Source: Cytobacillus gottheilii (GTDB taxonomy: Bacteria > Bacillota > Bacilli > Bacillales > Cytobacillaceae). Taken from it: a stretch of DNA of 64,000 bases. The position numbers were made by a program, and so were the translations under genes. The stretch lies in contig NZ_LT800494.1 in assembly GCF_900166665.1 (NCBI RefSeq), positions 3,494,061-3,558,060 of the forward strand. The letters run 5' to 3'. This document shows positions 36,402 to 57,000 of the stretch, one piece after another (position 1 is the first letter of the stretch; every line of letters begins with the position of its first letter). A model generated the notes under the pieces. It had not been told where the DNA came from. It ran no database searches and worked only from the letters and a program-made list of their open reading frames with translations.

Positions 36402-39400
36402 TATATCCCTCCCCCTAATCGAATTAATTCAGACCAATTATACAAATTATTTTTAACATATTTTGGTTCATTGTATTTCACTACTAATCGATGCTTCGCA
36501 CGAGTTAAAGCTACATACAATAATCGAGCTTCTTCACGAATACTTTCGTTATCCTCGATCTCTTTTAAATCATCATAATTTGTAGACTTAATTCCAATTT
36601 CATTTGTATTTACTTTAGTTTTCCATCCAGCTTTAATCTGCTCATTTTCCCTTACGACAATCATATTTTGAGCTGACTTTTTTACCAAAGGCTGATTTGT
36701 ATATGGCAAGAAAACAGTATCAAATTCCAAACCTTTGGCTTTATGAACAGTCATAACACGAATAAGCTTCTCTACATTGTTGATCTCAACTTCCATTTCA
36801 TCTTCTTTGCGATTTGTTGCAACCTGTCTTTCGAGCCAATCACGAAGATGAAGGATTCCAAGCATAGAAGGTTTTAAGGATTCTCCTGCAATTTCGAGGA
36901 TTCTGTATAGATTCAATCGATATTTTTGAATTTCATGGTCTTGAACATTCATTGCTTTTAAGACTTCCTGGTATGGGTTATTCATAAGAATTTGATAAAT
37001 TGCGTGTAGGGTTGGTTTTATTCTTAATGCCTTGAGAGTTTCTGAGTACCCGCTAACCTCATCAAACGACAGCCTATCCATTATTTCATTAGAATTACCT
37101 TCAAGAGATATAAATTCTACAGGGTTAAATGATTTAGTAGAAAACGCTGTTTGGCGAAGCGCATAAAAGCTTTCAGTATCTCCTATGTAACAAAGAGCAT
37201 TCACTAAGATAAGCAAGTCTTTTGCTGCTCTGGATTTAAACAGACTTCCACCTGTATTCACTTCAAACACAATCTCACGATGGTTTTGCCGAAGATCCTC
37301 TAATAACTTGCGTATTTCCTGTGCTTGATAATTAGTACGCACTAAGATTGCTAATTCAACTGGCTTATCTTGTTTCTCTTCTTCTTTGTCTCTTATTAAG
37401 GCATGATATAGTTCAAGTGTAGTCTGAGAAACATCAATGCAATTATTAATGTTATATGGTTCTGTGTATTTGGTTCTCATGACTGTTGGCACAAGTCGTA
37501 CCCCTACTGTATCATTAGACTTTGGTAAAACTTGAAGCGAATGGTTGCGCCACACATCAAATATGTTCTCAAGCGGATGAAGAATAGCAGCTTCAGTTCG
37601 ATAGTTTTTTTTCAATTTGTATTCTTTATTGATGGTACATTCACCTAATTTTTTGGTAAGTAAGTCGAAAGCAGTATAGTTCGCTCCTCTGAATCTATAA
37701 ATTGATTGTTTGATATCGCCTACTGCAAATAATTGAGAACCAGTTAATATTGTGAGAGAATGTATTAAATCGATCTGAACATCATCTGTGTCTTGAAATT
37801 CATCCACAAATAAGAAACGAAAAGGCTTACTCATTTGTTGCTTATTCAAATACGGTTTGAATGCACTGATCTTTTGTGTCAAATCATTAACAGTAAGTAC
37901 ATCTTCTTTCAGCTTTTCTTGAGTAAATTTACTCTCACATTCCGTAATCACATCTTTAAATAACCGAAAGTATTTTTTTTCCATTTCATTAGATGGAAGC
38001 TCTCCCCACTGAATCTCCTTATGATTTTCTAAAATAATTCCTTTTTGCTCAAGTTGATTCCAGAAATGATCAATTAGATTTATTATTTCATAATCATTCA
38101 AGTGACCTAAATCTTTATATGTCAATTTATGGTTTGTAATATACTCATCAAGTACGTCTGCTATCATTTCAGCACGTTTCATTTTTAGAGAACGCACTGA
38201 AAAGTTCCTGCCCATCCCAAGTTCTGAACTAAAATCTTGAATCAAGGTTTTAGAATATGAAGAGATGGTCATTATACTCATTGCAGTGACTTCTTCACTC
38301 CAATTTAAATACTGTATCTTCTTTGTAATCTCAAAAAGTTGTAAAAGTCTCTTTAAAAGTTTAGATTTCATACTGTCAGCTGCTTCGTTCGTAAAAGTAA
38401 TCATCACAACTTCTGAGAGGCTGGTTATGATCCCTGTATGAAGCAGATAAACTATACGTGAAATCATTGTTTCTGTTTTTCCACTTCCTGCACCTGCTTC
38501 GACCATCAAGTGCTTATCAAGTGTCCCGTGTTCAACCGCATATTGTTCAAAATTAAATGAAGACAGATCTCCAATTTCCTGAAGAATCTTTTTTTGTTCT
38601 TCTTTAAACATACCGTCATGAATAAAAAAATCATATCCTTGTGCATTCGGCCATTCATGAATACGTAAATTTGTCTTTCCTGCTCCTTTAAAGGGTGATA
38701 TCCATTCAATGCGTATACCTTTATTTAAAAGCAAGTCAATTTTGCTTGCATAATCGTTCGGATTCTTCCTTCCAACATATATAAGAGAATGCTTAGGTTG
38801 TCTGGTTGGGACATTCTTAGATGACTGTTTCAGTACAGTTGGAAATACGTATTGCTCTAATACTTCTGCATGGTTTAAAGAATCTGTTTGGATAGACAAC
38901 TTATGATATATCAACTCAACATCCTTCTCACTATACACATAAAAAGGATCTGTCTCAGAACCAATATTTATTGGAGTTGCATCTGAACCATTTAGCGGTA
39001 AGTAATAATCGGCATACCCCGGGCTTATCAGTCTTCTAGAAGTCTGCTTTTTTTTAATTGCTATATGAGTATCATTTCCTTTAAAGAGTTGCAACCCTAG
39101 CTTTTTCTCGCCCAAGGTCACTACCAAATCCTGTTTTGCTTCAATATCATAGGCATAATTTAATTGGACATTATCGAACTTTTTACTCTCTCTAAGTTTG
39201 AAAAAAAAATGTAAGTCACGAATCAAAGAATCGTATGCTTGGTCTATACGATATAAATAAGCAAAATATATGGATTCATTTGGTTTGACATGTGAATAAT
39301 AAGCATCCATGTACAAATCCCTAAACTGCTGATTTGAAGGCAATTTTTTAGATTCTATAATTAAGTCATATAAGAATGATACAAATATAGGCATCTGCTC

Positions 39401-39568
39401 ATACCTTACGTTCGGATGCCGCTCAATTTTCTCATGGTATTTCTTATATTTAGAAGTTATTTCTCGCTCGATATTAATGGTTGAATGTAGGATTTGAATC
39501 ACTTGATCCTCTAGCCTTAGTTTTAAAGTTTTCATTGAATGTTCATCTCTCCGTGAAGGTTTAGACAT
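36401..39568 (-). CDS. UvrD/AddA-like superfamily 1 helicase with unusual N-terminal domain
   Basis: The 1055-aa protein has all SF1A helicase motifs: Walker A EAGAGSGKT near residue 357, Walker B LFVDEFQDTD, motif III VGDIKQSIYRFRG, motif IV KKNYRTE, motif V VHKAKGLEFDTVF and motif VI LYVALTRAKHRL. The first 340 residues are not helicase; a stretch around 140-165 (DIEAKQDLVV then KKLGLQLF) could be a degenerate PD-(D/E)XK core, which is a guess. The start at 39568 (MSKPSRRDE) follows AGGAAG; the ORF extends 12 codons upstream. It is translationally coupled to the AddB-like gene and should unwind DNA for it. Confidence 0.85.
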   Translation of the reverse strand: MSKPSRRDEHSMKTLKLRLEDQVIQILHSTINIEREITSKYKKYHEKIERHPNVRYEQMPIFVSFLYDLIIESKKLPSNQQFRDLYMDAYYSHVKPNESIYFAYLYRIDQAYDSLIRDLHFFFKLRESKKFDNVQLNYAYDIEAKQDLVVTLGEKKLGLQLFKGNDTHIAIKKKQTSRRLISPGYADYYLPLNGSDATPINIGSETDPFYVYSEKDVELIYHKLSIQTDSLNHAEVLEQYVFPTVLKQSSKNVPTRQPKHSLIYVGRKNPNDYASKIDLLLNKGIRIEWISPFKGAGKTNLRIHEWPNAQGYDFFIHDGMFKEEQKKILQEIGDLSSFNFEQYAVEHGTLDKHLMVEAGAGSGKTETMISRIVYLLHTGIITSLSEVVMITFTNEAADSMKSKLLKRLLQLFEITKKIQYLNWSEEVTAMSIMTISSYSKTLIQDFSSELGMGRNFSVRSLKMKRAEMIADVLDEYITNHKLTYKDLGHLNDYEIINLIDHFWNQLEQKGIILENHKEIQWGELPSNEMEKKYFRLFKDVITECESKFTQEKLKEDVLTVNDLTQKISAFKPYLNKQQMSKPFRFLFVDEFQDTDDVQIDLIHSLTILTGSQLFAVGDIKQSIYRFRGANYTAFDLLTKKLGECTINKEYKLKKNYRTEAAILHPLENIFDVWRNHSLQVLPKSNDTVGVRLVPTVMRTKYTEPYNINNCIDVSQTTLELYHALIRDKEEEKQDKPVELAILVRTNYQAQEIRKLLEDLRQNHREIVFEVNTGGSLFKSRAAKDLLILVNALCYIGDTESFYALRQTAFSTKSFNPVEFISLEGNSNEIMDRLSFDEVSGYSETLKALRIKPTLHAIYQILMNNPYQEVLKAMNVQDHEIQKYRLNLYRILEIAGESLKPSMLGILHLRDWLERQVATNRKEDEMEVEINNVEKLIRVMTVHKAKGLEFDTVFLPYTNQPLVKKSAQNMIVVRENEQIKAGWKTKVNTNEIGIKSTNYDDLKEIEDNESIREEARLLYVALTRAKHRLVVKYNEPKYVKNNLYNWSELIRLGGGI

Positions 39569-39710
39569 TATTATTAATCTTCCTAATTTTCCACATAGGA
39601 CCATTATACCAAGAAAAAGGAGAAGGAAAAGATACAGATTTTAGTAAATTTATGTGAAATTTAATTAAGTTATTATAACCACTTACCTAAGGCTTTTCTC
39701 TTTAGATTTA

Positions 39711-42155: not shown

Positions 42156-43655
42156 TTATATGTTTGTCTTGGGTATAGGTTTCTTTAAGGCATTTAATAC
42201 CCCTTCAGCAATTCCTCGGCTCATAAGAGGTGGAACTGCATTACCCACTTGCATATAAGTTTTAGTATACGGTCCTTTAAAGAAGTACTCATCAGGAAAA
42301 GTCTGTACTCTCGCAGCTTCTCTTGGTGTTAGTCCTCTAGCTTGGGTAGGATGGATATACATATTACAATCAAATTTCATATGCGCTGTAATAGTTTTAC
42401 AAGGAGCATTATAAATAAGCTTAAAATACTTATCTTTAAAAATTCCACTTCTACTCTGATATGGCATAATATCCGCTATCTTTGGATCATCTGATTTATC
42501 ACCTTGATCCATTCTTCCAAATATCTCTATATCTCGATCATTGTTATATCTTGCTTTATGATTGTACAAAACCTTAGGAATTGATCCACAGTTAATTACC
42601 TTTAAAAATTCATTTGAATTTGATAAGGGACTATTTGTAATGATTTTCCCGCTTTCTTCTGATTCTAAATTAGTTGCATTCTTTACTCTTGAAGCCTCTA
42701 GTTTAGGTAAGTCTTTAATTGCATCTTTAAGGGTAAACCGCCTATTTAAGTATGCATTCTGCATATTTATTTCCGCAAAAATAGATGCATTGTCTAAACC
42801 TAGCCTGTTACCGATGAAGATTACCCTTTTTCTATTTTGCGGAACCCCAAAATCTATTGCATTTAATACTTCACAATGAAGTTTGTATCCAATCGCCTCG
42901 AAGTCCTCTTGCACTTGTGAAGCCACAGAAAGCATCCCTTGTACATTTTCCATAACAAAAAATTTAGGTTGAATATTCTCCACAATCTTCACAAAACTCT
43001 TATAAAGTTTGTTTCGAGGATCATCAATAATTCTTTGTCTGTTAGCATTACTAAAACCTTGACAGGGCGGTCCGCCAATTACTACATCTACATCTTTATA
43101 TCTGATTCTTTCTTCAATTTCATCAATTATATTATTAATATCTTCATGGTAAATATATTCTTTTGGTAATTCAGGATGGTTAAAAGAATATGTTTCAATG
43201 CAAGATGGTTCAATGTCATTTGCAAAAGCAATTTTGTAACCTGCTTGTTTAAATCCAAGTGACATCCCTCCTGCACCACAGAATAGATCCACAATCACAG
43301 GTTTATCATCTTTTCCTTCCATCTCTGATATATGGCTAATACAATGATTACAGAACTTATAAGTACAGCATTTTTTTGTTTCATCGTGTTCAATTTTGCT
43401 TAACAATAAACTGAATTTATCCTTTGATATGTGAAACTCTTTCTCTATCAAAGCCAGCAAAGTTTTTAAATCTTCCTGCTCTGAAATGAGACCAATTTCG
43501 ACTAATTTCTGTTCTATACTTGATTGATCTTCCTTATTTATTTTTTTATCATCTACAATTTTTAGTATTTCTAAAAAGTCTTTAAGCTCATTAAGGAATA
43601 CCTTTTTTACTTTACTATCGTTAAGATCCTTGATGCTGTAGTTCACGAGCTTCAT
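42156..43655 (-). CDS. C5-cytosine DNA methyltransferase (LlaJI/BsuMI-type pair, second gene)
   Basis: The 499-aa enzyme has an extra N-terminal region of about 115 residues ending in a cysteine cluster (KKCCTYKFCNHC), then motif I DLFCGAGGMSLGF, motif IV GGPPCQGFSNANRQ, motif VI FVMENVQG, motif VIII DFGVPQNRKR and motif X QVGNAVPPLMSR. Its start overlaps the third methyltransferase gene by 35 bases. ATG 43655 has a poorly placed ribosome site; GTG 43646 is better spaced and may be the true start. Two methyltransferases beside an McrB-like/LlaJI-like pair is the LlaJI and BsuMI arrangement, where each may modify one strand or sequence of the target. Confidence 0.93.
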   Translation of the reverse strand: MKLVNYSIKDLNDSKVKKVFLNELKDFLEILKIVDDKKINKEDQSSIEQKLVEIGLISEQEDLKTLLALIEKEFHISKDKFSLLLSKIEHDETKKCCTYKFCNHCISHISEMEGKDDKPVIVDLFCGAGGMSLGFKQAGYKIAFANDIEPSCIETYSFNHPELPKEYIYHEDINNIIDEIEERIRYKDVDVVIGGPPCQGFSNANRQRIIDDPRNKLYKSFVKIVENIQPKFFVMENVQGMLSVASQVQEDFEAIGYKLHCEVLNAIDFGVPQNRKRVIFIGNRLGLDNASIFAEINMQNAYLNRRFTLKDAIKDLPKLEASRVKNATNLESEESGKIITNSPLSNSNEFLKVINCGSIPKVLYNHKARYNNDRDIEIFGRMDQGDKSDDPKIADIMPYQSRSGIFKDKYFKLIYNAPCKTITAHMKFDCNMYIHPTQARGLTPREAARVQTFPDEYFFKGPYTKTYMQVGNAVPPLMSRGIAEGVLNALKKPIPKTNI

Positions 43656-44598
43656 CCTTTTTGCTATTTAATTTGTCCAATATCGCCTTAGCAACATATT
43701 CAGCTACATTAACGGTAACTGCATTTCCAAATTGCTTATAGGCTTGAGAATCAGACACAATAATTTCATATTTAGACCCCTCAGGAAATCCTTGAAGACG
43801 AGCACATTCTCGTGGCGTTAATCTTCTAACTGATGTTTTACCCTCTATTTCTGCTAACTCACTCGGCTGGGTTACATAATTGTCTTGACTGGCACGATGC
43901 ATCTTAGCCATAGTAGCGCATAAAGGGCGGGCAATTGAAAGATCAATCTCTGTTTTTGCCTTATATGTCTTTGTCCCGCTTGCCATGATCGTTGGAAGAA
44001 TTTTGTGAGAAAGATAGTATTTAGCCGGTACATTTTTTTCTAGGATATTTTGCAATGTTGTTTCTAATGGAATAGGAGCTGGAAAGTCGAATTTGCCGAT
44101 ATTTAAGTCTTTTCTAAAACAAACCATAAAAATTCTGTTTCGTGTTTGAGGCACACCATAGTCAGCACTATTTAAAACCTGATCAAATACATCATAGCCT
44201 GCTAAATCAAGATGTTCTCTGATCACTTTATATGTTCTGCCATTTTCGTGATTTACCAAATTACGGACATTTTCTAAAACAACTACTTTAGGTTTATGAT
44301 GCAAAATAATCTGTTCAATATTAAAGAATAGTGTTCCCCTAGTATCTGTAAAGCCTTTCTGATCCCCCATCATACTAAATGGCTGGCATGGAAATCCCCC
44401 AATTAATACATCATGGTTTGGTATTTCACTAACCGGAATTTCCGTTAAATCTTTTTCAATTATATGATCACCAATATTATGTCTATAAGACTGTACTGCA
44501 AATTTATCGATATCATTTGCCCAAATTATATTAAATCCTGCCTGGATAAATCCCAGGTCCAAACCTCCGCATCCACTAAATAGTGAAACAACTTTCAT
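43621..44598 (-). CDS. C5-cytosine DNA methyltransferase (LlaJI/BsuMI-type pair, first gene)
   Basis: The 325-aa enzyme is of minimal length and has motif I SLFSGCGGLDLGF, motif IV GGFPCQPFSMMGD with the catalytic Cys, motif VI VLENVRN, motif VIII DYGVPQTRNR, and motifs IX-X RECARLQGFPEG and QFGNAVTVNV. Its start codon overlaps the ribbon-helix-helix gene by 4 bases (ATGA) and its end overlaps the next methyltransferase by 35, so the three form one tightly coupled operon. Target sequence unknown. Confidence 0.94.
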   Translation of the reverse strand: MKVVSLFSGCGGLDLGFIQAGFNIIWANDIDKFAVQSYRHNIGDHIIEKDLTEIPVSEIPNHDVLIGGFPCQPFSMMGDQKGFTDTRGTLFFNIEQIILHHKPKVVVLENVRNLVNHENGRTYKVIREHLDLAGYDVFDQVLNSADYGVPQTRNRIFMVCFRKDLNIGKFDFPAPIPLETTLQNILEKNVPAKYYLSHKILPTIMASGTKTYKAKTEIDLSIARPLCATMAKMHRASQDNYVTQPSELAEIEGKTSVRRLTPRECARLQGFPEGSKYEIIVSDSQAYKQFGNAVTVNVAEYVAKAILDKLNSKKDEARELQHQGS

Positions 44599-44894: not shown

Positions 44895-44926
44895 TTTGTA
44901 CTTTTGGTATACTTTAAAAGTACAAA
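44895..44926. promoter_or_regulatory. 32-bp palindrome at the restriction gene promoter
   Basis: TTTGTACTTTT (44895-44905) and AAAAGTACAAA (44916-44926) are perfect inverted repeats separated by ten bases containing GTATAC. The segment TATACT at 44909-44914 fits a -10 box, so the palindrome would cover the promoter of the McrB-like gene. A site of this size 26 bases before the GTG start is a strong candidate operator. The likely binder is the ribbon-helix-helix protein or one of the methyltransferases. Confidence 0.65.
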
Positions 44927-44951
44927 CAAGATTAAAAACGGAGGACTGAAA

Positions 44952-46673
44952 GTGACAACTAACTTTAAGGAAACACTAGAAATATTGCAACAATTTCTTC
45001 AAAGAATAGATCAGCCACTTGCTAATAGATTAAACTTGGCAAATAGTAAAAACTATGATGGAGTTTTTATAAAAAAACTTGCTGAATCTAATACGTTAAC
45101 AAATAATAATGGAAAACAAAAACATATTGCCTTCAGCAGCAAACAGGAAATAAATTTCTTCCCTTACTTAAGTAACTTTGTAGAATTAATCGATAATAAA
45201 GATTCCAGCTACAATTCGAACGAGTTTAAAAGAAGATATGGCGTAAAAATCAATATTCATTTATTGAAGGAAAATCTCGAATATAAAACCCAAGAAGAAA
45301 AGTCAGATATTCATTGCTTTACAACTCATTTTTTGAGCAGAGGCGGGAATCAATCTGAAATGGGATCCATGTATACAGATGCAAAGGAGTTTACAGATTT
45401 CAGAAGACTTTTTGATATTGGAGATGCTCTAATTTTTCTTAAACATCGGAGCAGATTTACATATGATTTACTTATTATTAACAGCAATGACTATGCTGAA
45501 ATCGAACAGACATTTAAACGAGGTTTTGTTGTTTATGATGATTTCTCCCCTGCACGGCAACACTCAACTTTAACATCTCCGGAAGAGTGGGGTGATGATT
45601 CTTCAAATCCTTTAATACCAGGTATAAATTTAATTATGTACGGTGCTCCAGGTACTGGTAAAAGCCATGCACTAGATAAAAGGTATGCTGGGAACAACAG
45701 TATGAGGGTAACTTTTCACCCTGAATATACCTATCATGACTTTGTCGGAAGCTACCGTCCGCAGCCAATTTATAGAATAGGACCTACTCAAGATGAGGCT
45801 TATAATTTTATAACCGCATCAGGGGAACCTTTTGAAAAAGGAGAACCTTATATTAATTATAATTTTATTCCTGGCCCATTTACACTCTCACTAGAAAAAG
45901 CCATTCGTTCAGCTAGAGAAGATCAGATTCCGCAAAAACATACATTAATTATTGAGGAAATAAATCGTGCTAATGCACCTGCTGTGTTCGGTGATTTATT
46001 TCAGCTATTAGATCGGCAAGTCAATGGAGAAAGCTCATATGGTGTTTCTAACTTAGAAATTTTAAAGTATTTAAAAGGAAAAGGCGTTTTAGAAGCAGAT
46101 ATAACAGAAATTAAGATTCCAAGTAATTTAAATATAGTTGCAACGATGAATAGCGCTGACCAAGGAGTATTTGTAATGGACTCTGCTTTTAAAAGAAGGT
46201 GGCTTTTTGAATATTTACCAATAGATGCAGAAAAGGCAGTTCATAAAGATGAAAAGGTACTCTACAATAATAAATTCGTAAGATGGAGTGATTTTATAGA
46301 TTCACTTAACGACCTTCTAGCGGACCACGCGATTAATGAAGATCGCCATATCGGACCATACTTCTTAAAACCAGGCGAACCATCTAATAACAATACTATA
46401 ACCTCAAAATTACTTTTGTATCTATGGGATGATGCAGCACGCCTTAAGCGTTCAAAAGTGTTTATAGATGGAATTAAAACATTTTCTCAACTTGTTAGCT
46501 TTTTTAATAATGGGAATGCCGTTTTTCAGAAGAATTTTAACTTTATAGAGGAAAAAACTAACGAGGACTTTACGAACAATATCTCTGCTATGAATACTGC
46601 CTTAAAAGATAAAATCGCTGAAAATAATAATGAGTATAACATAGGTGATGTTGATAAAAATGAGCAATTATAA
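44952..46673 (+). CDS. McrB-like AAA+ GTPase, restriction subunit of LlaJI/BsuMI-type system
   Basis: The 573-aa protein has an N-terminal recognition region of about 225 residues without a family I can name, then a McrB-type AAA+ domain: Walker A MYGAPGTGKSHAL near residue 232, Walker B TLIIEEINRANAPAVFG, and the sensor MNSADQGVFVMDSAFKRRW, where MNxxD is the McrB GTP-binding signature. It should drive translocation or activation of the nuclease partner encoded next. The start is GTG 44952, which has CGGAGG 8 bases upstream; the upstream ORF extension crosses the palindrome. It overlaps the next gene. Confidence 0.92.
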   Translation: MTTNFKETLEILQQFLQRIDQPLANRLNLANSKNYDGVFIKKLAESNTLTNNNGKQKHIAFSSKQEINFFPYLSNFVELIDNKDSSYNSNEFKRRYGVKINIHLLKENLEYKTQEEKSDIHCFTTHFLSRGGNQSEMGSMYTDAKEFTDFRRLFDIGDALIFLKHRSRFTYDLLIINSNDYAEIEQTFKRGFVVYDDFSPARQHSTLTSPEEWGDDSSNPLIPGINLIMYGAPGTGKSHALDKRYAGNNSMRVTFHPEYTYHDFVGSYRPQPIYRIGPTQDEAYNFITASGEPFEKGEPYINYNFIPGPFTLSLEKAIRSAREDQIPQKHTLIIEEINRANAPAVFGDLFQLLDRQVNGESSYGVSNLEILKYLKGKGVLEADITEIKIPSNLNIVATMNSADQGVFVMDSAFKRRWLFEYLPIDAEKAVHKDEKVLYNNKFVRWSDFIDSLNDLLADHAINEDRHIGPYFLKPGEPSNNNTITSKLLLYLWDDAARLKRSKVFIDGIKTFSQLVSFFNNGNAVFQKNFNFIEEKTNEDFTNNISAMNTALKDKIAENNNEYNIGDVDKNEQL

Positions 46674-47907
46674 TTTATATGAGCATTGTTTTATCGAATT
46701 AAAGAAATATTCTTTTGACACATACAAAGAAAACATACCTAATGATTTGTTTGTTAGAGGGTTATGTATTAAAGAAGAAAATAATCTTGTATTTAAATGT
46801 ACTGGATTAATTGTGTCTCATAATAAAATTTTTGTTATCTTTCCCAAAGGCAGTGTTATTCCTACAGAGGAAACGGTGTTAAAAGAACATATTCGTCTTC
46901 TAATAGATGTATTAAGTAAATATAGTCTTTCAAGTACTCTGGATCCAATTGAAACTTCCCTGCTAGGTGGAATTGGGGAGAATAAATCTTTTATGGCTGC
47001 TGCCTTTTGGTTAATCAAAGATTATTTTGAACACGGAATTGTACATTTCCAGAATCAAGAATATGGGCTAAATCAGAGCACAAATATCAATTGGGCTCGA
47101 ACTATCAATACCATCTCACCTGTAATTTCTAATCATCAGCCGATATATTTAGATTTAGTAACGAAAAAGCACTTTAAGTATGATCACTTAATTACAAAAA
47201 TTCATCAATATGCAGTGGAACACTGTTTAAAATTATATGGATGGTTATTCGATTATGATGGAGAACAAGATAAAGAAACTGAACTTCCTTGCGATGAAGA
47301 TACAGCTCTACATTACCTAGAGCTAGAAGCTCATCGAACGTTTCATGAACGAAAATCCAACCTTTTTCAAAATTTGAGGGAATTTATATTAGGAAGTCAC
47401 ACTTTTTCAAAAGAAAGTATTTTTACTTTTGTCACACCATATTTTCATACTGTGTGGGAAAAAATCTGTCATTTGCTTTTTTCAGATTTAAACGATAAAA
47501 GTATACCTAAGCTTCCGCCCCCTTATTGGAGTGTTGGTCATAAAGTGGCAAAAACAGAGCAGATCCCTGATATAATGTTTAGGAAAGAGAAGAAGCTGTT
47601 TATACTTGATGCAAAGTATTACAGAGTTGATTATGCGCCATTCAAACTTCCTGGGTGGGGCGATCTCGTTAAACAGTTTTTCTATAGACATACCTTGTTA
47701 GAAAATGAAAATGAGGGAATAGAAAATATATTTATTTTCCCAGGACAAAGTCACCAGGGTCTTGAATACTTAGGTTTTGCTGCTGTGGAAGGGATAGCCA
47801 ATTTAGGCCAAATTAGAGGCTTTATCGTAGATGTCGTTGAAGGGATGAAATACTATGTAAACAATCAAAAAGGTGAATTTAGAGACAAATTATTGATGTT
47901 TTACTAA
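46660..47907 (+). CDS. LlaJI/McrC-family restriction endonuclease subunit
   Basis: The 415-aa protein resembles the LlaJI family (relative of McrC and B. subtilis YdjA). The nuclease core lies near residues 295-345: IPDIMFRKEKKLFILDAKYY, giving the P-D...D-x-K pattern of PD-(D/E)XK enzymes, followed by DLVKQFFYRHTL. It should cut DNA when driven by the McrB-like protein. The start at 46660 follows TAGGTGATG; it overlaps the McrB-like gene by 14 bases. In BsuMI three genes (ydiR, ydiS, ydjA) do the job done here by two. Confidence 0.9.
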   Translation: MSNYNLYEHCFIELKKYSFDTYKENIPNDLFVRGLCIKEENNLVFKCTGLIVSHNKIFVIFPKGSVIPTEETVLKEHIRLLIDVLSKYSLSSTLDPIETSLLGGIGENKSFMAAAFWLIKDYFEHGIVHFQNQEYGLNQSTNINWARTINTISPVISNHQPIYLDLVTKKHFKYDHLITKIHQYAVEHCLKLYGWLFDYDGEQDKETELPCDEDTALHYLELEAHRTFHERKSNLFQNLREFILGSHTFSKESIFTFVTPYFHTVWEKICHLLFSDLNDKSIPKLPPPYWSVGHKVAKTEQIPDIMFRKEKKLFILDAKYYRVDYAPFKLPGWGDLVKQFFYRHTLLENENEGIENIFIFPGQSHQGLEYLGFAAVEGIANLGQIRGFIVDVVEGMKYYVNNQKGEFRDKLLMFY

Positions 47908-48239: not shown

Positions 48240-49151
48240 TTATAATTTTAAATCTATACTCTTTTTATCTAATCCAGTTAAATCAATGCTATAAAAAATT
48301 TGCTCAATATGCTTAGGAATTTGATTGTTTTTAAAATTTTCTGGTGTAATTCTTGGAAATTTTTCATCAACTTTGTACATTGAGAATTCTAATAATCTAT
48401 ATGACTCTTTACGTGAGGTACTGCCCTTCTCTACCCCCAGAACAATTAAACGTTCTTCAATATACTCTTGTTTTATTCCTCTTTTAATAAGCAATTCTGA
48501 TAAATGGTTGATTGATAACCCATTTTCACTTTTTTCCAAACGACAAAATAAAAGATACTGAGGTTTATCACTAAATAATTGATATTGTCCGCTTATTTGG
48601 ACAATAGATTTATAACGATTTACAGTTGATTTAACTTCATAATATCCAGTTTTACTAATTAAATCAATTGATCCTCCAAATGGACCATACCATTCAGAGT
48701 CCGTTGATTGGTCATACAAGTAAGTGAACGATATCATTTCAGCAATAATGCTATAAACCAGTTTATTGTGATTTGCGTTACCGAGAAGTTCCTTCATATG
48801 CATCCACCATTTAAGCGGCTCTGTTGTAAGCATTTTTCGGGTCTCATTATTAGGTCCTAGTTCAATAAAATCCCTGCATATTTTGGCGAATTCATTTCGT
48901 AAATGGTTTATATCTGAAGTAATGGCTAAAAGACGAATTCCTTTGTCGCCAATACTATAATCTTTAGTAAAAAAGTTCATTTTTGAAAACTTTTCATTTA
49001 CTTCTATTGACTTATCTACTTCTATTGCAACACCATTAGCTCCATTTATCTTTATTACCCAACTATTTAATGCAGATTTATTATTCACTTCAATTATTTG
49101 ACCATCTTGTAGATTTGAGAAATTTGATTGAATTGTTTCTAATAGGGTCAC
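48240..49151 (-). CDS. DUF4420 PD-(D/E)XK endonuclease
   Basis: The 303-aa protein matches the PD-(D/E)XK motif family DUF4420 found with cytosine methyltransferases. Its core near residues 165-180 reads GGSIDLIS then GYYEVKST, giving Asp and Glu-x-Lys. KWWMHMKELLGN and SIIAEMISFTYLYDQ precede the core as in relatives. It should be the DNA-cutting subunit of the six-gene system. Its start lies 10 bases after the stop of the fourth methyltransferase gene, and it is the last gene of the operon. Confidence 0.85.
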   Translation of the reverse strand: MTLLETIQSNFSNLQDGQIIEVNNKSALNSWVIKINGANGVAIEVDKSIEVNEKFSKMNFFTKDYSIGDKGIRLLAITSDINHLRNEFAKICRDFIELGPNNETRKMLTTEPLKWWMHMKELLGNANHNKLVYSIIAEMISFTYLYDQSTDSEWYGPFGGSIDLISKTGYYEVKSTVNRYKSIVQISGQYQLFSDKPQYLLFCRLEKSENGLSINHLSELLIKRGIKQEYIEERLIVLGVEKGSTSRKESYRLLEFSMYKVDEKFPRITPENFKNNQIPKHIEQIFYSIDLTGLDKKSIDLKL

Positions 49152-49161
49152 TTAAACACTC

Positions 49162-50496
49162 CTAATTCAAATATGGTTTAATAGAGCTTGCAATTGCTTG
49201 AGAAAGTAAAGGAGGTACTGCATTCCCAATCTGTTTAAATGCTTCACCCATTGTACAATTAAATAAAAAATCGTCTGGGAAAGATTGAAGTCTTGCAGCC
49301 TCTCTTACTGAGATACCACGTGGCTCCCAAGGATGAATATGACTGTAAGTATCAACACTTAAATGCGCGACAAGAGTATGAGATGGGCGATCCAGCTGTA
49401 ACTTTTGCCATTTTGATAAAAACTTTTCAGAAGAATATGGGGGAACAATGCTCTTTCTTAGTTCTTCATAACCATCTGTATTCTGAGTAATATTAAGGCG
49501 CTTGCATTCCTGTTCAAAAAGCTGGTTAGCTATTTTTATAGCTTGAATATAGTTATCACCAGGGTTCATTTTTGCAAAAATAGGAAAGTCCCTTACTGTT
49601 TTACGAAATCCATGCCCCGTTACCAAATGAGCCGGTAAAACATTCTTACGCATGGTTTCTTGAAATACATTTTGGGGTTTCAATGTGTAAGGGAAAGCCA
49701 TATTCAGTTTATTTAGCTTATAAGGTGATTTTGAAGCAGGAAATAATGAAGGTAAATCAGAAATCGCCTCTTTAACAGTAACCCAATATGGCAGGTGTTT
49801 TTCAGGTTCCAACGCAGTACGGAAATACTGTGAATCTGAAAAAGCTCTTTGTTTACGTATATAAGAACTCCTTGGTTGGTGTGTTGGAATTGGTAAACTT
49901 AATTGGTTTGTTATTTCTTTTTTTACTGCCACCACAAATATTCGTTCACGTGTTTGAGGAACACCAAAATCTGCTGAATTTAATAATGTCCAATACGCAG
50001 TATATCCAGCATTATCTAATTCTTCACATACAAGTTCAGGGATATTTTTATTATCATAATTGGTTGACTCTGGAACATTCTCCATTACAACAGCATTAGC
50101 ATTCAACTCTAAAGCATGGCGAAGAAAATCTTGATAAAGATATCCCCTTTTATCCTTTGTCTGTATACGTTCATCGCCTAAGGATCGAAGCTTTGCTCGA
50201 CCAGCCATTGAATATGCTTGACAGGGTGGTCCCCCAATTACTATAGGATTCTCTTTAATAATATTATTAAATACATTTGAATTGACTTTGGATATGTCTA
50301 AATTTAAGTGTTCCCTATCCACACCATGTTTCCAGTGAAGGTTGTATGAGGCAGTAAGATGGGCAGATTTATCAATCTCTATCCCAGTTGAGATAGAAAA
50401 TCCAGCTTGAAAGAAACCTAACGCCATACCACCACATCCTGAAAAAAGGTCAACTACTTCACTACATCTTGACTTTTGTTTTAACAAAGTATTCAA
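49162..50496 (-). CDS. C5-cytosine DNA methyltransferase of the Z1/GHKL system
   Basis: The 444-aa enzyme has motif I DLFSGCGGMALGF, motif IV GGPPCQAYSMAGR, motif VI VMENVPE, motif VIII DFGVPQTRER, and motifs IX-X REAARLQSFPDD and QIGNAVPPLLSQ. It has a long target recognition region between VIII and IX of about 195 residues. The start is TTG 50496 with AAGGG upstream, overlapping the preceding gene by 35 bases. It gives the self-marking for the restriction genes in the same operon; the sequence it modifies is unknown. Confidence 0.93.
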   Translation of the reverse strand: MNTLLKQKSRCSEVVDLFSGCGGMALGFFQAGFSISTGIEIDKSAHLTASYNLHWKHGVDREHLNLDISKVNSNVFNNIIKENPIVIGGPPCQAYSMAGRAKLRSLGDERIQTKDKRGYLYQDFLRHALELNANAVVMENVPESTNYDNKNIPELVCEELDNAGYTAYWTLLNSADFGVPQTRERIFVVAVKKEITNQLSLPIPTHQPRSSYIRKQRAFSDSQYFRTALEPEKHLPYWVTVKEAISDLPSLFPASKSPYKLNKLNMAFPYTLKPQNVFQETMRKNVLPAHLVTGHGFRKTVRDFPIFAKMNPGDNYIQAIKIANQLFEQECKRLNITQNTDGYEELRKSIVPPYSSEKFLSKWQKLQLDRPSHTLVAHLSVDTYSHIHPWEPRGISVREAARLQSFPDDFLFNCTMGEAFKQIGNAVPPLLSQAIASSIKPYLN

Positions 50497-51199
50497 ACAG
50501 CCCTTTCACATAAGTATTAATTCCACCTTCGACTAGGCTTGGTTCAATAATCTTTGTTCTAGCAGTACTTAACTTTAAAACTCGACGGAATAAAATAGTT
50601 CTCTGTGTTCCTACCACATCAAGATAATCATAGTGAAACACTGACATTAACTCACGAGTAAAATCAACTCGATATCCATTTATACCAGTACGTTCAACAA
50701 GTTGTGCAACAGTGTCAGTTGTATTATTCTTAAGTACATCAAATGTTAATTTTCTTGTATTTTGCCAAGATAAATGAATATACCACCAAAGTGATTTCAA
50801 CCAAATACGTCTTGGGTTTTCATAATACCTTCCTGCTTTTAAACCATGACGCTTATAAACTACCTCTGGGATAATTACTATTGATAAGTATCGCCAAATA
50901 TCATCTTGAGATGCAAGTCGTTCATTGAAGCCAAAATTTTCATTTAAAACTTCGTAAATTGCTAAACCTGTATAAAGATCAATATCATACAAATCAGGTG
51001 TAGAATTATTTTCACACAAAGGGGTTTGTGCTGTTCTAATCGCTTCAACCAAGGCAACTCTTAAGTCTTTAGATGCTTGAGTTAGTTTTTTTGGTAATAA
51101 GTCATCTTCTCGTAAGTTCTCAAACTTTTTTGTAGCATCAAGCTTCGTTAATTTTAATTTCTCCCAAACAGAAGGTTCAAGCCAATCTATATTAATCAT
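50462..51199 (-). CDS. DUF6339-like protein
   Basis: The 245-aa soluble protein resembles DUF6339, a family seen beside Z1 and GHKL genes. It has DDIWRYLSIVIIPEVVYKR and PRRIWLKSLWWYIHLSW, both aromatic-rich, and no recognisable catalytic site. The start at 51199 (MINIDWLEP) has GGAGAAG upstream and overlaps the previous gene by 8 bases; the ORF is open further but inside the previous gene. It must have a role in the complex, perhaps structural or target sensing, since relatives keep the same position. Confidence 0.65.
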   Translation of the reverse strand: MINIDWLEPSVWEKLKLTKLDATKKFENLREDDLLPKKLTQASKDLRVALVEAIRTAQTPLCENNSTPDLYDIDLYTGLAIYEVLNENFGFNERLASQDDIWRYLSIVIIPEVVYKRHGLKAGRYYENPRRIWLKSLWWYIHLSWQNTRKLTFDVLKNNTTDTVAQLVERTGINGYRVDFTRELMSVFHYDYLDVVGTQRTILFRRVLKLSTARTKIIEPSLVEGGINTYVKGLFEYFVKTKVKM

Positions 51200-52133
51200 T
51201 TTTTTCTTCTCCCAAATTTTCAAAATGCGCACGAATTGATTCAGAAAGTAGTTCTGGAGATTCAAAGTTCCAATTAAAAGTTTTTATAAAATAATGAATT
51301 GCTGATCCAATTGATCCTTCTTCAAGGTTATCCCCATTTTTGATGTAATCCCATTCTGGAAAAGTTTTTACATGAGTAATTATGAGTGTAAGTGCACTTG
51401 CTAACACTTCAGATTGTAAATACGTTCCAACTTGGGAATCCTGTTTTTCTAAATATTTAAAACCAGAATGTGCAGAATTGAAATATATACAGACATGCTC
51501 AATATCGAATAAATCAATAGTCGGATCATCAATATTGTACTCCACATACCATAAAGGTTTTAAAGGATCATGAACTTTTTGAATTGGTAATGTTGACATT
51601 GCACCATCAATATTAATTAATTGTTCAAAAATATTTCCAAGCATTATCCCAGGAATATTTGCTTTCCCCAATATTGGAGTGGTATCAGCTTTTTTTACAT
51701 AAAGACAAATGTTTATATTAAAGCTTCCATAAAATTGCTTTGCACTTAACTCTTCTTCGAAATCTATCACAACACTTTGCCCAAAACCTTTGCCAAATTC
51801 CCCTATAGGCCAGATGTGTTGCTGTGATGATTTTTTAGATGCTATTTGCAAAGCAACCCCTATCACTGCTCCATTACCTACTAATCCGTTTTGACCAAAT
51901 AAAAAGTCTGGATTATTAAAGATAACTTCACCCGCAACTATAACACCAGAATATCGAAATTCCCAAGTCGAATTAACATCCTCCAACACTGTACCTATAC
52001 CGTCATCAACTATAGTAAGCTCTTCCCGTTCTCCTTCTCTATTAATATAAAAATATCTTAAAGAGAACAAAGGGCATACTTTGTTTTCAAATGTATGATC
52101 AAATATTGTGTATGAACTTAACGTATTGCTCAT
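51192..52133 (-). CDS. unknown subunit of the Z1/GHKL restriction system, 313 aa
   Basis: I recognise no family. The protein has no membrane segment and looks mixed alpha/beta, with an N-terminal beta-rich part (PLFSLRYFYINREGERE, GVIVAGEVIFNNPDFLFGQNG) and a helical C-terminus. No nuclease or ATPase motif is visible. It overlaps the GHKL gene by 4 bases (ATGA) and the DUF6339-like gene by 8, so its level is tied to theirs. It is one of the two least understood members of the operon. Confidence 0.75.
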   Translation of the reverse strand: MSNTLSSYTIFDHTFENKVCPLFSLRYFYINREGEREELTIVDDGIGTVLEDVNSTWEFRYSGVIVAGEVIFNNPDFLFGQNGLVGNGAVIGVALQIASKKSSQQHIWPIGEFGKGFGQSVVIDFEEELSAKQFYGSFNINICLYVKKADTTPILGKANIPGIMLGNIFEQLINIDGAMSTLPIQKVHDPLKPLWYVEYNIDDPTIDLFDIEHVCIYFNSAHSGFKYLEKQDSQVGTYLQSEVLASALTLIITHVKTFPEWDYIKNGDNLEEGSIGSAIHYFIKTFNWNFESPELLSESIRAHFENLGEEKND

Positions 52134-54181
52134 GCTTGTCTCTCCTCAAATTTGTGTGTTAATGAGAATTGGACAAATGGATCATTATTATTAATAATAA
52201 TTTCTCCTTCCACTATTAAAGGCTTACCTAAATTCTTAATAATAAGCATACTATTTACATTGTATAATTGTGATGGAACAATAGTAATAAACTCTTTAAA
52301 AAATTCGTTATCAGTGACAATGACATCATCGTTAATTTTACTAATTCTGACACCTTTTATTTCTATTGGGAAAGCAGTTCCTATTCCACTTTTTTCATCT
52401 TCCCAGCCCATTGAATTAATTACGCCATTCTCTGATTGGATAATTAATTCAATACTAGCTTCATTAACTTTTGGAGTTAATTTCAACAAAAATTTCGCAA
52501 TTAAATTCCCTTTTTCATCATAATGATTATTATTTATAGTAAAAGAATCTCTCCTTTTACTTGAAGAATCGCTGTTAGGTGAATTTTTAGTGGTAGGCAT
52601 TGTCCCATTTAACCTCTTACCATAACCTCTTGGAGGAAGCAGTATTTTGCCGAATTTTTTTGCTAGCATAGTAGTGCCATAGTGTTCCTGTTTTTTTTCT
52701 TTCTGTTTATAAACACTAGATAGCGCTTTTCTAACGGAATTTTTAATACTAGATACTAATCTGGTACTTTTGCCTTCTACTTGCAGATTAGACCATGAAG
52801 CATGATCAGCTTCCTCACTTTTCCGCAAGTACTCTTCTAATATAGATATAGTATTAGTTGTAAGTTCTGAAAAAGAGTTAGGTACAAAAATAGCTAATAA
52901 AAACTCATCATTATTGACTTCAATATTAGTACACCAGTCACTACTTAATTCGTAGTTTATAAGCATACCTGGTTTACGAACATACGTAACAATTGGAGAA
53001 TTCATTGTATCACTAATATTTTCACGGTTAATATATTCAAAAGGACTTAAAGCATTTATAGGTCTAACCATACCCAATTCTTTTTTTGTATATTTTTTAA
53101 ATGCCACTATTCCACCATTTGGCATATCACCTTTAGGAGGCTTTACAATTCCTTTAAGATTGACATCGTGAATATGAACATTATTTTTTTCTAGCAGTTG
53201 CTTATCTTTTATAGAAAGCGGATTTGCAGCTTTATTATATAGGTATTGAATTTCTCGGAAAACTGGCTCCATTTTATCTATTTTTAAACTGCTTCCGTTA
53301 ATTTGAAAATCGAGCCATTTTCCATAATGGTACTTAGGATTATCTAACCTTGGTGCATACCACCGTTGAACAGCAATTTTTAAATATGATTCAATTGATG
53401 TTTCCCACCATGCAAATGCATCCTCAGTTGAAATATAGGATAACTCTTCATTTATAAAAGGAATTATAACTGTCGTACCAGTTTCTTCATTCTTAAGCGG
53501 TTTAATATGCAATGCTTCCAATATCTTGTGTATCTCTGAAGTATTCGTGATCGGTATAGTGCTATCCTTACCCGATTCTAGCTCCTGGCCCCACCAGGCA
53601 ATCCCACGACTCCAACTTTTATCATTAGGAAGTATTGCAGTTTGTGATTGTTCATCTTCTACCAAGGTTGCAGCCAGACGTTCTTCGTATGTGTTATCTT
53701 CATTTTGTATTCTTGAATAGTAAATAACAAGACCTATCCCTAAACGAAAATACACAGTTTTACCAAGCCCCCATGATCCACCGGCACCTTCTTTAGTTTG
53801 GGGCATGCTGATACCATATATTAGTTTGTATATGTTACCAGCTTCCTCTAAGCCTAATCGATAATCAAGGTTCCCGGTTAGTCCAGTAGTGTTCTTGTCA
53901 CTAATATAAAGTGACTTTGGCTGTATGTTTGTAAAACGTTTATTTAGTGTACCTTCAATTCCTTCAAAATGTTTTGAAAGTAAGGGGACATTTATATCTT
54001 TAACTCCCATATCAACTATAACAGAGTCATATTTACCAGAAGGCAATGCGGCATCCAAGCTATTTTGTATGGATTCCCTAATAAGTAAATCTAGTACGGG
54101 CAAATTATTATTTTGTAATGATTTTAATAATGAACTCCCCGTTTGAGACATTTTACTAAATTCAGCAAGCTCTATTTTCAA
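52130..54181 (-). CDS. MORC/MutL-like GHKL ATPase
   Basis: The 683-aa protein has the GHKL ATP-binding motifs: N-box LIRESIQNSLDA (residues 33-44) with Glu36 and Asn40, motif G1 SDKNTTG (94-100) and G2 GGSWGLGK (134-141). The rest has a likely S5-like domain and a low-complexity linker of Ser/Asn/Lys near 545-565. GHKL ATPases of this type dimerise on ATP binding and clamp DNA. Iyer and colleagues described such MutL/MORC homologues in restriction systems with Z1 proteins, as here. It starts 2 bases after the Z1 gene ends. Confidence 0.9.
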   Translation of the reverse strand: MKIELAEFSKMSQTGSSLLKSLQNNNLPVLDLLIRESIQNSLDAALPSGKYDSVIVDMGVKDINVPLLSKHFEGIEGTLNKRFTNIQPKSLYISDKNTTGLTGNLDYRLGLEEAGNIYKLIYGISMPQTKEGAGGSWGLGKTVYFRLGIGLVIYYSRIQNEDNTYEERLAATLVEDEQSQTAILPNDKSWSRGIAWWGQELESGKDSTIPITNTSEIHKILEALHIKPLKNEETGTTVIIPFINEELSYISTEDAFAWWETSIESYLKIAVQRWYAPRLDNPKYHYGKWLDFQINGSSLKIDKMEPVFREIQYLYNKAANPLSIKDKQLLEKNNVHIHDVNLKGIVKPPKGDMPNGGIVAFKKYTKKELGMVRPINALSPFEYINRENISDTMNSPIVTYVRKPGMLINYELSSDWCTNIEVNNDEFLLAIFVPNSFSELTTNTISILEEYLRKSEEADHASWSNLQVEGKSTRLVSSIKNSVRKALSSVYKQKEKKQEHYGTTMLAKKFGKILLPPRGYGKRLNGTMPTTKNSPNSDSSSKRRDSFTINNNHYDEKGNLIAKFLLKLTPKVNEASIELIIQSENGVINSMGWEDEKSGIGTAFPIEIKGVRISKINDDVIVTDNEFFKEFITIVPSQLYNVNSMLIIKNLGKPLIVEGEIIINNNDPFVQFSLTHKFEERQA

Positions 54182-54183
54182 CT

Positions 54184-57000
54184 TTACTCTCCACCCTCAA
54201 TATTTTCATATTTAGTTTCTGAACTATCCAGCTCAATCGTCAAGCTCGCAGCTAAACTCTTGCCATTTTCTTGTCCTGGGATATATAAGCTGACTCCTAT
54301 AATATCCTCATCAGCTTTTAATGAGGTTCGTGTGCCAGACATAGGATCAGCATTACTATCTTTATCTATACGATAAATAACCAATTGCGGAGTTTTCCCT
54401 AAACCAGCTTTTTTACGAACTTCACGAACATATGCATTAGAGGTCATAGTAAAATCTTTATGGTCTTCTGGAAGAAGTGCTAATCGATCCTCATCAATAT
54501 CTTCATACAAATCACTTGGCGCACGTAAAACACCTATGTTAATAAAGCCTTCATCTTGATCCTCTAATTTCCCTAATCTAGTACGCTTTATTTTGCCAAT
54601 TGAATGATTAGCTATCTTCCAAACGTTATCTCCATCACTATCGACTTTGCCAATACCTGAAATCAAAATATTCCATCCTGTAAAATCAGCTTCCTTAGCC
54701 TTTTCTTCATACCATTCACACAACTTATCAATTTGTTTAAAGGTGCGAGATCTTTGATTGAATTTAAACTTAGTTAAGAAATGATTTTTAACTAAATCAA
54801 AGTCAATATTCTCCCAGAATAGACCTTTTTTAGTACGTGTTATTTTAGGTGTTCCTAACTGGCAGATGAATTTTTCAGTAACTTCTATATTTTCTTGCAG
54901 CTCTTTACTATTATTATTAAAAAATGTTGTTTGACTTGTAGTACCAGAAAAATCTATATTTGTAGGAATAGCACTTTGACTACGATTCTTAGCAGTAACT
55001 AACATCCATGAAACTTTTGGTGAATTCTTTACTTTTGGTCCATAGAGAGCAGGTTCGTCTCCTTGTAATGAATATACTTTTAACTCTTCACGCAACTCTT
55101 CATCCAACAAAGCTAAGAAACGGTATTTTTCCTGTGTATCATTTGTCATCCATATACGCGGCAGCATTTCGTAGCCTTTTCTATAACCGAACCAACGACC
55201 CATTTGCATTAATGTATCTGCAGTTTTAGTTGTACGAAGAAAATAAGTACTAACCAGCCCTTCTATTGTCAAGCCTCGTGACAATGTACTTCCGCCTATT
55301 ACAATAAATGCTGGTGCCGGTGAAGGATAATGAGCACTATCAACAGGCACATCTGGGTAAGCTAATCGAACATGCATATCTTCATCATTAAATCCATTAT
55401 TTGCACAATTATCAATACAAAGGTGTATGCCATCATGATAATCTAATTTTCCTTCATCCCCCAAAGGTATATGAGAGATTTGATCTTTTAAACGAATAAT
55501 CTCCTCTTTTATTCTATTAAAACTTGGATAATCTTTTACTTTAAGAGGATAACCCTCGAAATCTAATTCAAAATCTTCAAGAGTCATACGTGTTCTTTCC
55601 TCATCATAAATTAGATTACATAACTTAACCCAATCATCAGTTGAGAATGATGTAATGTATCGCTGAATAGATTCCGCAATATTCGCATGATCTTTTTGTG
55701 CTTGACTAGTATGAATGAGCATACTAATTGGTTTTTTATACTTACGATATCTCATAACAGCTGTGGCACAAAAGAACCAATGAATAGCGTTTTTTAGTGA
55801 ATTTGGAATATCTTTACGACGTCCTTTGTGTATATCCTTAATATGTTTTTCTTCATCGAGTTCCTTAGAGACACTGATTTCTCGAATTATCCTTAAACCT
55901 CGATATTCTACCGTATCATCAAGACCAAATATCTGTTTAGGACCAAAGTATTCCTTTGCTGGGTTTAATACCCCTATAAAATCTTTAGGATATAGAGAAT
56001 CTATTTTTGCTTCATTTAAAAAGTTTGCATATGGTGTTGCTGTATAACTAATATAATTGACAGACTGCGGCTTTATTTTATTTCCAATATTCACAAGTTT
56101 TCTTATTTCATTATTGATTTTAGTTCGTTCATCAGTTGAGATATCCTTCGTATTTATACCAGCTTGATCTGCCTCATCATCAATTATTAGAATTCGCATT
56201 TGTTTCAGCTTGTGCGGGTTTTCTTTTAACCATGATTCTAGATTTTGTAATCGTTTTCTATTTTTTAAGCATACAGTTAGATATCTCTTTGAATCATCTT
56301 CTCCTAAATGTAATTGATGTGTCCTCTCTGCAGAATCACTCTGTAGGGACGGTTTTGATATACGTGTCCATGCAAGATTTCCTGGTTTATCTAAGTCACT
56401 AATCAACCGATCTTCAGTCTGTTTCCGTAAATTTTCAATAATACCTGAAAGTACAATAAATACATTCCAACCCCAGTCTGCTGCCATTGCCATTAAGCCA
56501 GACATATTAGCAGTTTTACCAGACTGAACATTACCAATTACTAAACCTTTTATAGGACCATTTTCAGTGGTATTGATATTAAGCTTTTTTAAGATACCTT
56601 CAGTAGTTTGTTCTAATTCATTAATAGATTCCTCAGACCAACCATTCTTTGATAAGGATTTTTTATATAGTTGCCAAGAACCTTGTTCATTGTCAGGAAC
56701 GTGCATCTCATTATCAGCATTTGCAGCCACCAATGTACTTTGCTTAATCCTTTCATCTAGACGCTTAGATTTCTCAGCTGTTTGTTTCAGTTCACTCCAT
56801 ATTGTCAACCACATCTCGGCAGTTAAATTTTCCGGACAACTTCCCTCTTCTATTCTATCATTTAGTTTATATTGTAAATAAGTTATATCAGGTCCCCCGA
56901 AAAATTGAGCTCCAGACCATCCTTTCCTATCTACTAAATTCCGTATTATAGTCCGATGTTCATCAAAACTTGGATTATTATATGTTTGCACTTTGCTCAC
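54184..57000 (-). CDS. Z1 domain helicase-like ATPase
   Basis: The 938-aa protein has a P-loop at residues 155-163 (GNVQSGKTA), a DEAD-like Walker B LIIDDEADQA (271-280) and late motifs SRGLTIEGL and QMGRWFGYR with the arginine finger, the pattern of Z1, a superfamily 2 helicase-like ATPase of restriction systems. It is the first gene of the six-gene operon and is expected to translocate on DNA. The start is GTG 57000; the ribosome site AGGAT lies very close, so a start a few codons away cannot be ruled out. It is divergent from a 73-aa gene. Confidence 0.9.
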   Translation of the reverse strand: MSKVQTYNNPSFDEHRTIIRNLVDRKGWSGAQFFGGPDITYLQYKLNDRIEEGSCPENLTAEMWLTIWSELKQTAEKSKRLDERIKQSTLVAANADNEMHVPDNEQGSWQLYKKSLSKNGWSEESINELEQTTEGILKKLNINTTENGPIKGLVIGNVQSGKTANMSGLMAMAADWGWNVFIVLSGIIENLRKQTEDRLISDLDKPGNLAWTRISKPSLQSDSAERTHQLHLGEDDSKRYLTVCLKNRKRLQNLESWLKENPHKLKQMRILIIDDEADQAGINTKDISTDERTKINNEIRKLVNIGNKIKPQSVNYISYTATPYANFLNEAKIDSLYPKDFIGVLNPAKEYFGPKQIFGLDDTVEYRGLRIIREISVSKELDEEKHIKDIHKGRRKDIPNSLKNAIHWFFCATAVMRYRKYKKPISMLIHTSQAQKDHANIAESIQRYITSFSTDDWVKLCNLIYDEERTRMTLEDFELDFEGYPLKVKDYPSFNRIKEEIIRLKDQISHIPLGDEGKLDYHDGIHLCIDNCANNGFNDEDMHVRLAYPDVPVDSAHYPSPAPAFIVIGGSTLSRGLTIEGLVSTYFLRTTKTADTLMQMGRWFGYRKGYEMLPRIWMTNDTQEKYRFLALLDEELREELKVYSLQGDEPALYGPKVKNSPKVSWMLVTAKNRSQSAIPTNIDFSGTTSQTTFFNNNSKELQENIEVTEKFICQLGTPKITRTKKGLFWENIDFDLVKNHFLTKFKFNQRSRTFKQIDKLCEWYEEKAKEADFTGWNILISGIGKVDSDGDNVWKIANHSIGKIKRTRLGKLEDQDEGFINIGVLRAPSDLYEDIDEDRLALLPEDHKDFTMTSNAYVREVRKKAGLGKTPQLVIYRIDKDSNADPMSGTRTSLKADEDIIGVSLYIPGQENGKSLAASLTIELDSSETKYENIEGGE

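Follow-up and report, generated by a model that had tools for sequence, protein, structure and literature searches.

What do two proteins of no assigned role do in an operon that otherwise resembles a restriction system? The question is raised by six adjoining genes of Cytobacillus gottheilii (contig NZ_LT800494.1), analysed within a stretch of 64,000 nucleotides, here called the window. Besides a first gene, the operon encodes a GHKL ATPase, proteins of 313 and 245 amino acids (aa; P313 and P245), a C5 methyltransferase and a DUF4420 nuclease (Table 1). It looks like a predicted DNA restriction system acting against foreign DNA, and P313 and P245 regularly accompany the GHKL ATPase, forming a three-gene unit with it. 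The general kind of system is already known, because its restriction core was predicted in 2008 (Iyer et al., PMC2292703) and the three-gene cassette is a PADLOC candidate, PDC-M33. In one library of open-licence PMC papers, no mention of PDC-M33 or DUF6339 was found, and seven papers mention paraMORC. Nor did that library yield a description of these six genes together, of P313 and DUF6339 as belonging to a paraMORC2 ATPase, of the exchangeable GHKL slot or of the methylase counts given below; Figure 2 of the 2008 paper may show part of this.

Class of the GHKL ATPase

Alignment of 11 GHKL sequences revealed RExxQNSxDA, DxxTxGL, GGSWGLGKT, TGT and ExxxH (E456, H460) as invariant. The wider comparison covered 22 six-gene loci including the window operon (21 without it), and 19 loci of MZA, a system reportedly described by Gao et al. 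in 2020. Iyer et al. (PMC2292703) define MORC proteins by the motif GhXhhpXXRhl and paraMORC2 proteins by ExxxH. The MORC motif was absent from the GHKL proteins of all six-gene loci (0/22) and cassettes (0/18) and present in all 19 MZA counterparts, which served as positive control; ExxxH..W had the reverse distribution (22/22, 18/18 and 0/19, respectively), and ExxxH alone, lacking the W, does not separate the groups, as 10 of the 19 MZA proteins have it. Since the window ATPase carries ExxxH..W and lacks the MORC motif, it is on sequence grounds a paraMORC2 protein. Its initial label was MORC/MutL-like GHKL; a MORC identity was rejected.

P313 and P245

The initial annotation had left P313 and the DUF6339-like P245 without a role; both are now placed as partners of the GHKL ATPase, in a unit that occurs in other bacteria and one archaeon even where the remaining operon genes are absent. 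Of 397 genomes of the order, 12 carry a member of the P313 family, and P313 gave nothing of note among Pfam or PADLOC profiles. PF19866 (DUF6339) matched six of 11 P245 family members (best 7e-7), the window P245 itself having no match, and exceeded its gathering cut-off in 7 of 398 genomes of the phylum, the window's genome not among these. Structure prediction of the single proteins, as initially proposed, gave a predicted beta-sandwich with C-terminal helices for P313 (predicted local distance difference test, pLDDT, 82.2; predicted template modelling score, pTM, 0.56), weakly resembling beta-sandwich proteins, and a predicted all-helical fold for P245 (pLDDT 86.3, pTM 0.83) for which no resemblance to any other protein was recognised.

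Relationship to PDC-M33 differs among the three proteins. PDC-M33A matched the window GHKL ATPase, PDC-M33B matched nothing in the window and none of 11 P313 members, and PDC-M33C lacked a match in the window and gave weak ones at two other loci (L049, L045). In profile-profile comparison the GHKL and DUF6339 proteins aligned with their counterparts at E 7e-17 and 1e-5, and P313 with PDC-M33B at E 0.072 with few sequences and 5.7e-5 with more, six decoys scoring at least 0.17. Iterative searches did not join the P313 and PDC-M33B families, and the middle proteins of Synechococcus, rhizobia and haloarchaea could not be aligned with PDC-M33B. A relationship between PDC-M33B and P313 is thus probable, though unproven; stepwise evidence suggests that P313 and the Synechococcus and rhizobial middle proteins belong to one family.

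That P313 and P245 are instead effectors or regulators triggered by the ATPases, such as a signalling or toxin-antitoxin-like pair, we regard as quite improbable: neither has a known function and many polar positions of P245 are invariant (R47, D74, R131, D162, E169-R170, R177, R182, E219), but no enzyme fold or nuclease motif was recognised in either. Identities as AIPR (abortive infection phage resistance) proteins or toxins were also considered and rejected.

Restriction and the methyltransferases

The earlier interpretation as a whole is partly supported. The six-gene operon is real, and its C5 methyltransferase and PD-(D/E)XK nuclease were correctly named (Table 1), the latter with E138, D163, E172 and K174 invariant in an alignment of 11. 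Several observations weigh against reading the operon as one restriction system. No target-recognition domain was found in it, and the existence of the standalone cassette means that the GHKL module may act in defence on its own and only be co-transcribed here; a C5 methyltransferase lies near only 8 of 15 such cassettes, and of 88 plasmid records matching DUF6339, 68 (64 Listeria, 3 Enterococcus, 1 Aerococcus) lack a GHKL match. In the two of these records examined, plasmids of Listeria innocua and Enterococcus faecium (L160, 5010-5569; L161, 4019-4578), the DUF6339 open reading frames (ORFs) are short and split, adjoin a UPF0236 transposase-like gene and, within the stretch displayed, are not accompanied by an annotated GHKL gene; they look like remnants. 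On a Lactococcus lactis plasmid (L152), a possible experimental model, the cassette is flanked by an AlwI-type restriction gene and AbiGI/AbiGII.

A system directed at phage DNA that is modified or otherwise marked, or one causing the death of infected cells, would not be protected by methylation, and the methyltransferase would be a passenger. The absence of the in-operon enzyme from 2 of the 22 six-gene systems and the AIPR gene that stands in place of the module in MZA loci are consistent with this. However, a C5 methyltransferase lies within about 20 kb at all 22 six-gene and all 19 MZA loci, and the in-operon enzyme, whose family occurs at 20 six-gene and no MZA loci, shows the strongest conservation among the six proteins (0.55 mean pairwise identity vs 0.38-0.49). 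We regard this reading as very improbable. In one genome lacking the in-operon enzyme, P313 is split over two contig ends (L151, 10733-15001; L040, 1-3894) with a transposase-like ORF at each, which probably reflects an inactivated copy or a break in the assembly.

Alternatively, an asymmetric site could require two C5 methyltransferases, a separate second enzyme, often accompanied by Vsr, being a seventh functional member. In similarly sized windows, at least two C5 methyltransferases were counted at 20/21 six-gene loci (21/22 with the window) compared to 3/19 MZA loci (Fisher p 3e-7), although the loci are not phylogenetically independent, and one second-methyltransferase family is present at 13/22 six-gene and 2/19 MZA loci. 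The extra enzymes nevertheless come from several families, often with restriction partners of their own (flanking NgoFVII-like PLD-B3 genes at 7 of the 21 other loci, LlaJI genes in the window), one locus (L025) has a single C5 methyltransferase, and clustered C5 restriction systems would give the same picture. We consider this arrangement unlikely, and favour, with moderate confidence, the six-gene operon as a predicted restriction system. The 572-aa neighbouring methyltransferase is a possible second modification enzyme; Vsr-like genes occur at 16 of the 22 six-gene loci.

Table 1. Operon and neighbouring features in the window
Feature	Coordinates	Strand	Basis
Operon gene	54184..57000	-	
paraMORC2-type GHKL ATPase, 683 aa	52130..54181	-	conserved motifs; PADLOC PDC-M33A 2.9e-10
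P313, middle protein of GHKL module, 313 aa	51192..52133	-	family comparison; structure model
P245, DUF6339 family, 245 aa	50462..51199	-	PF19866 matches among relatives; structure model
C5 cytosine DNA methyltransferase, 444 aa	49162..50496	-	Pfam DNA_methylase 2e-59
DUF4420 PD-(D/E)XK nuclease, 303 aa	48240..49151	-	Pfam DUF4420 1.9e-19
LlaJI-like pair, McrB-like AAA protein and second protein, adjoining a C5 methyltransferase	44904-47907		second protein matches RE_LlaJI (3.1e-52)
Further C5 methyltransferase, 325 aa, beside LlaJI-like restriction pair	43621..44598	-	Pfam DNA_methylase 1.3e-95
Further C5 methyltransferase, 499 aa	42156..43655	-	
Vsr-like very short patch repair endonuclease, 148 aa	41684..42130	+	match to purpose-built Vsr profile
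Neighbouring C5 methyltransferase, 572 aa	39769..41487	-	clusters with 17 ORFs from 16/19 MZA loci
Two large ORFs (991, 1067 aa), exonuclease-helicase-like (AddAB/RexAB or UvrD-like) pair	33426-39604		named by eye

Relation to known defence systems

MZA differs from the window operon in gene order, in its MORC-type rather than paraMORC2 GHKL protein and in the absence of P313 and DUF6339 from all 19 loci. Filing the operon under MZA was rejected, its NCBIfam scores falling far under the cut-offs (MzaC 260 bits vs 1500; MzaD 39 bits, 6.4e-10, vs 420), and no AIPR or MORC profile matched at E<=1e-5 in window positions 38241-64000. One six-gene system outside the window's order (L140) is immediately preceded by genes for AIPR and a Vsr-like protein and is a hybrid of the two types. 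The nuclease of CglI and NgoAVII belongs to the PLD-B3 type and contains its own target-recognition domain, in contrast to the PD-(D/E)XK DUF4420 protein of the window operon, near which no PLD profile matched; according to the papers, both systems also lack GHKL, P313 and DUF6339. PDC-M33 shares with the window unit a paraMORC2 GHKL ATPase, a protein of ~290 aa and a DUF6339 protein in the same order. VcSduA, a Shedu protein with a GHKL domain (paraMORC3), resembles the operon in combining a GHKL ATPase with a PD-(D/E)XK nuclease; in VcSduA the two are coupled and defence requires both.
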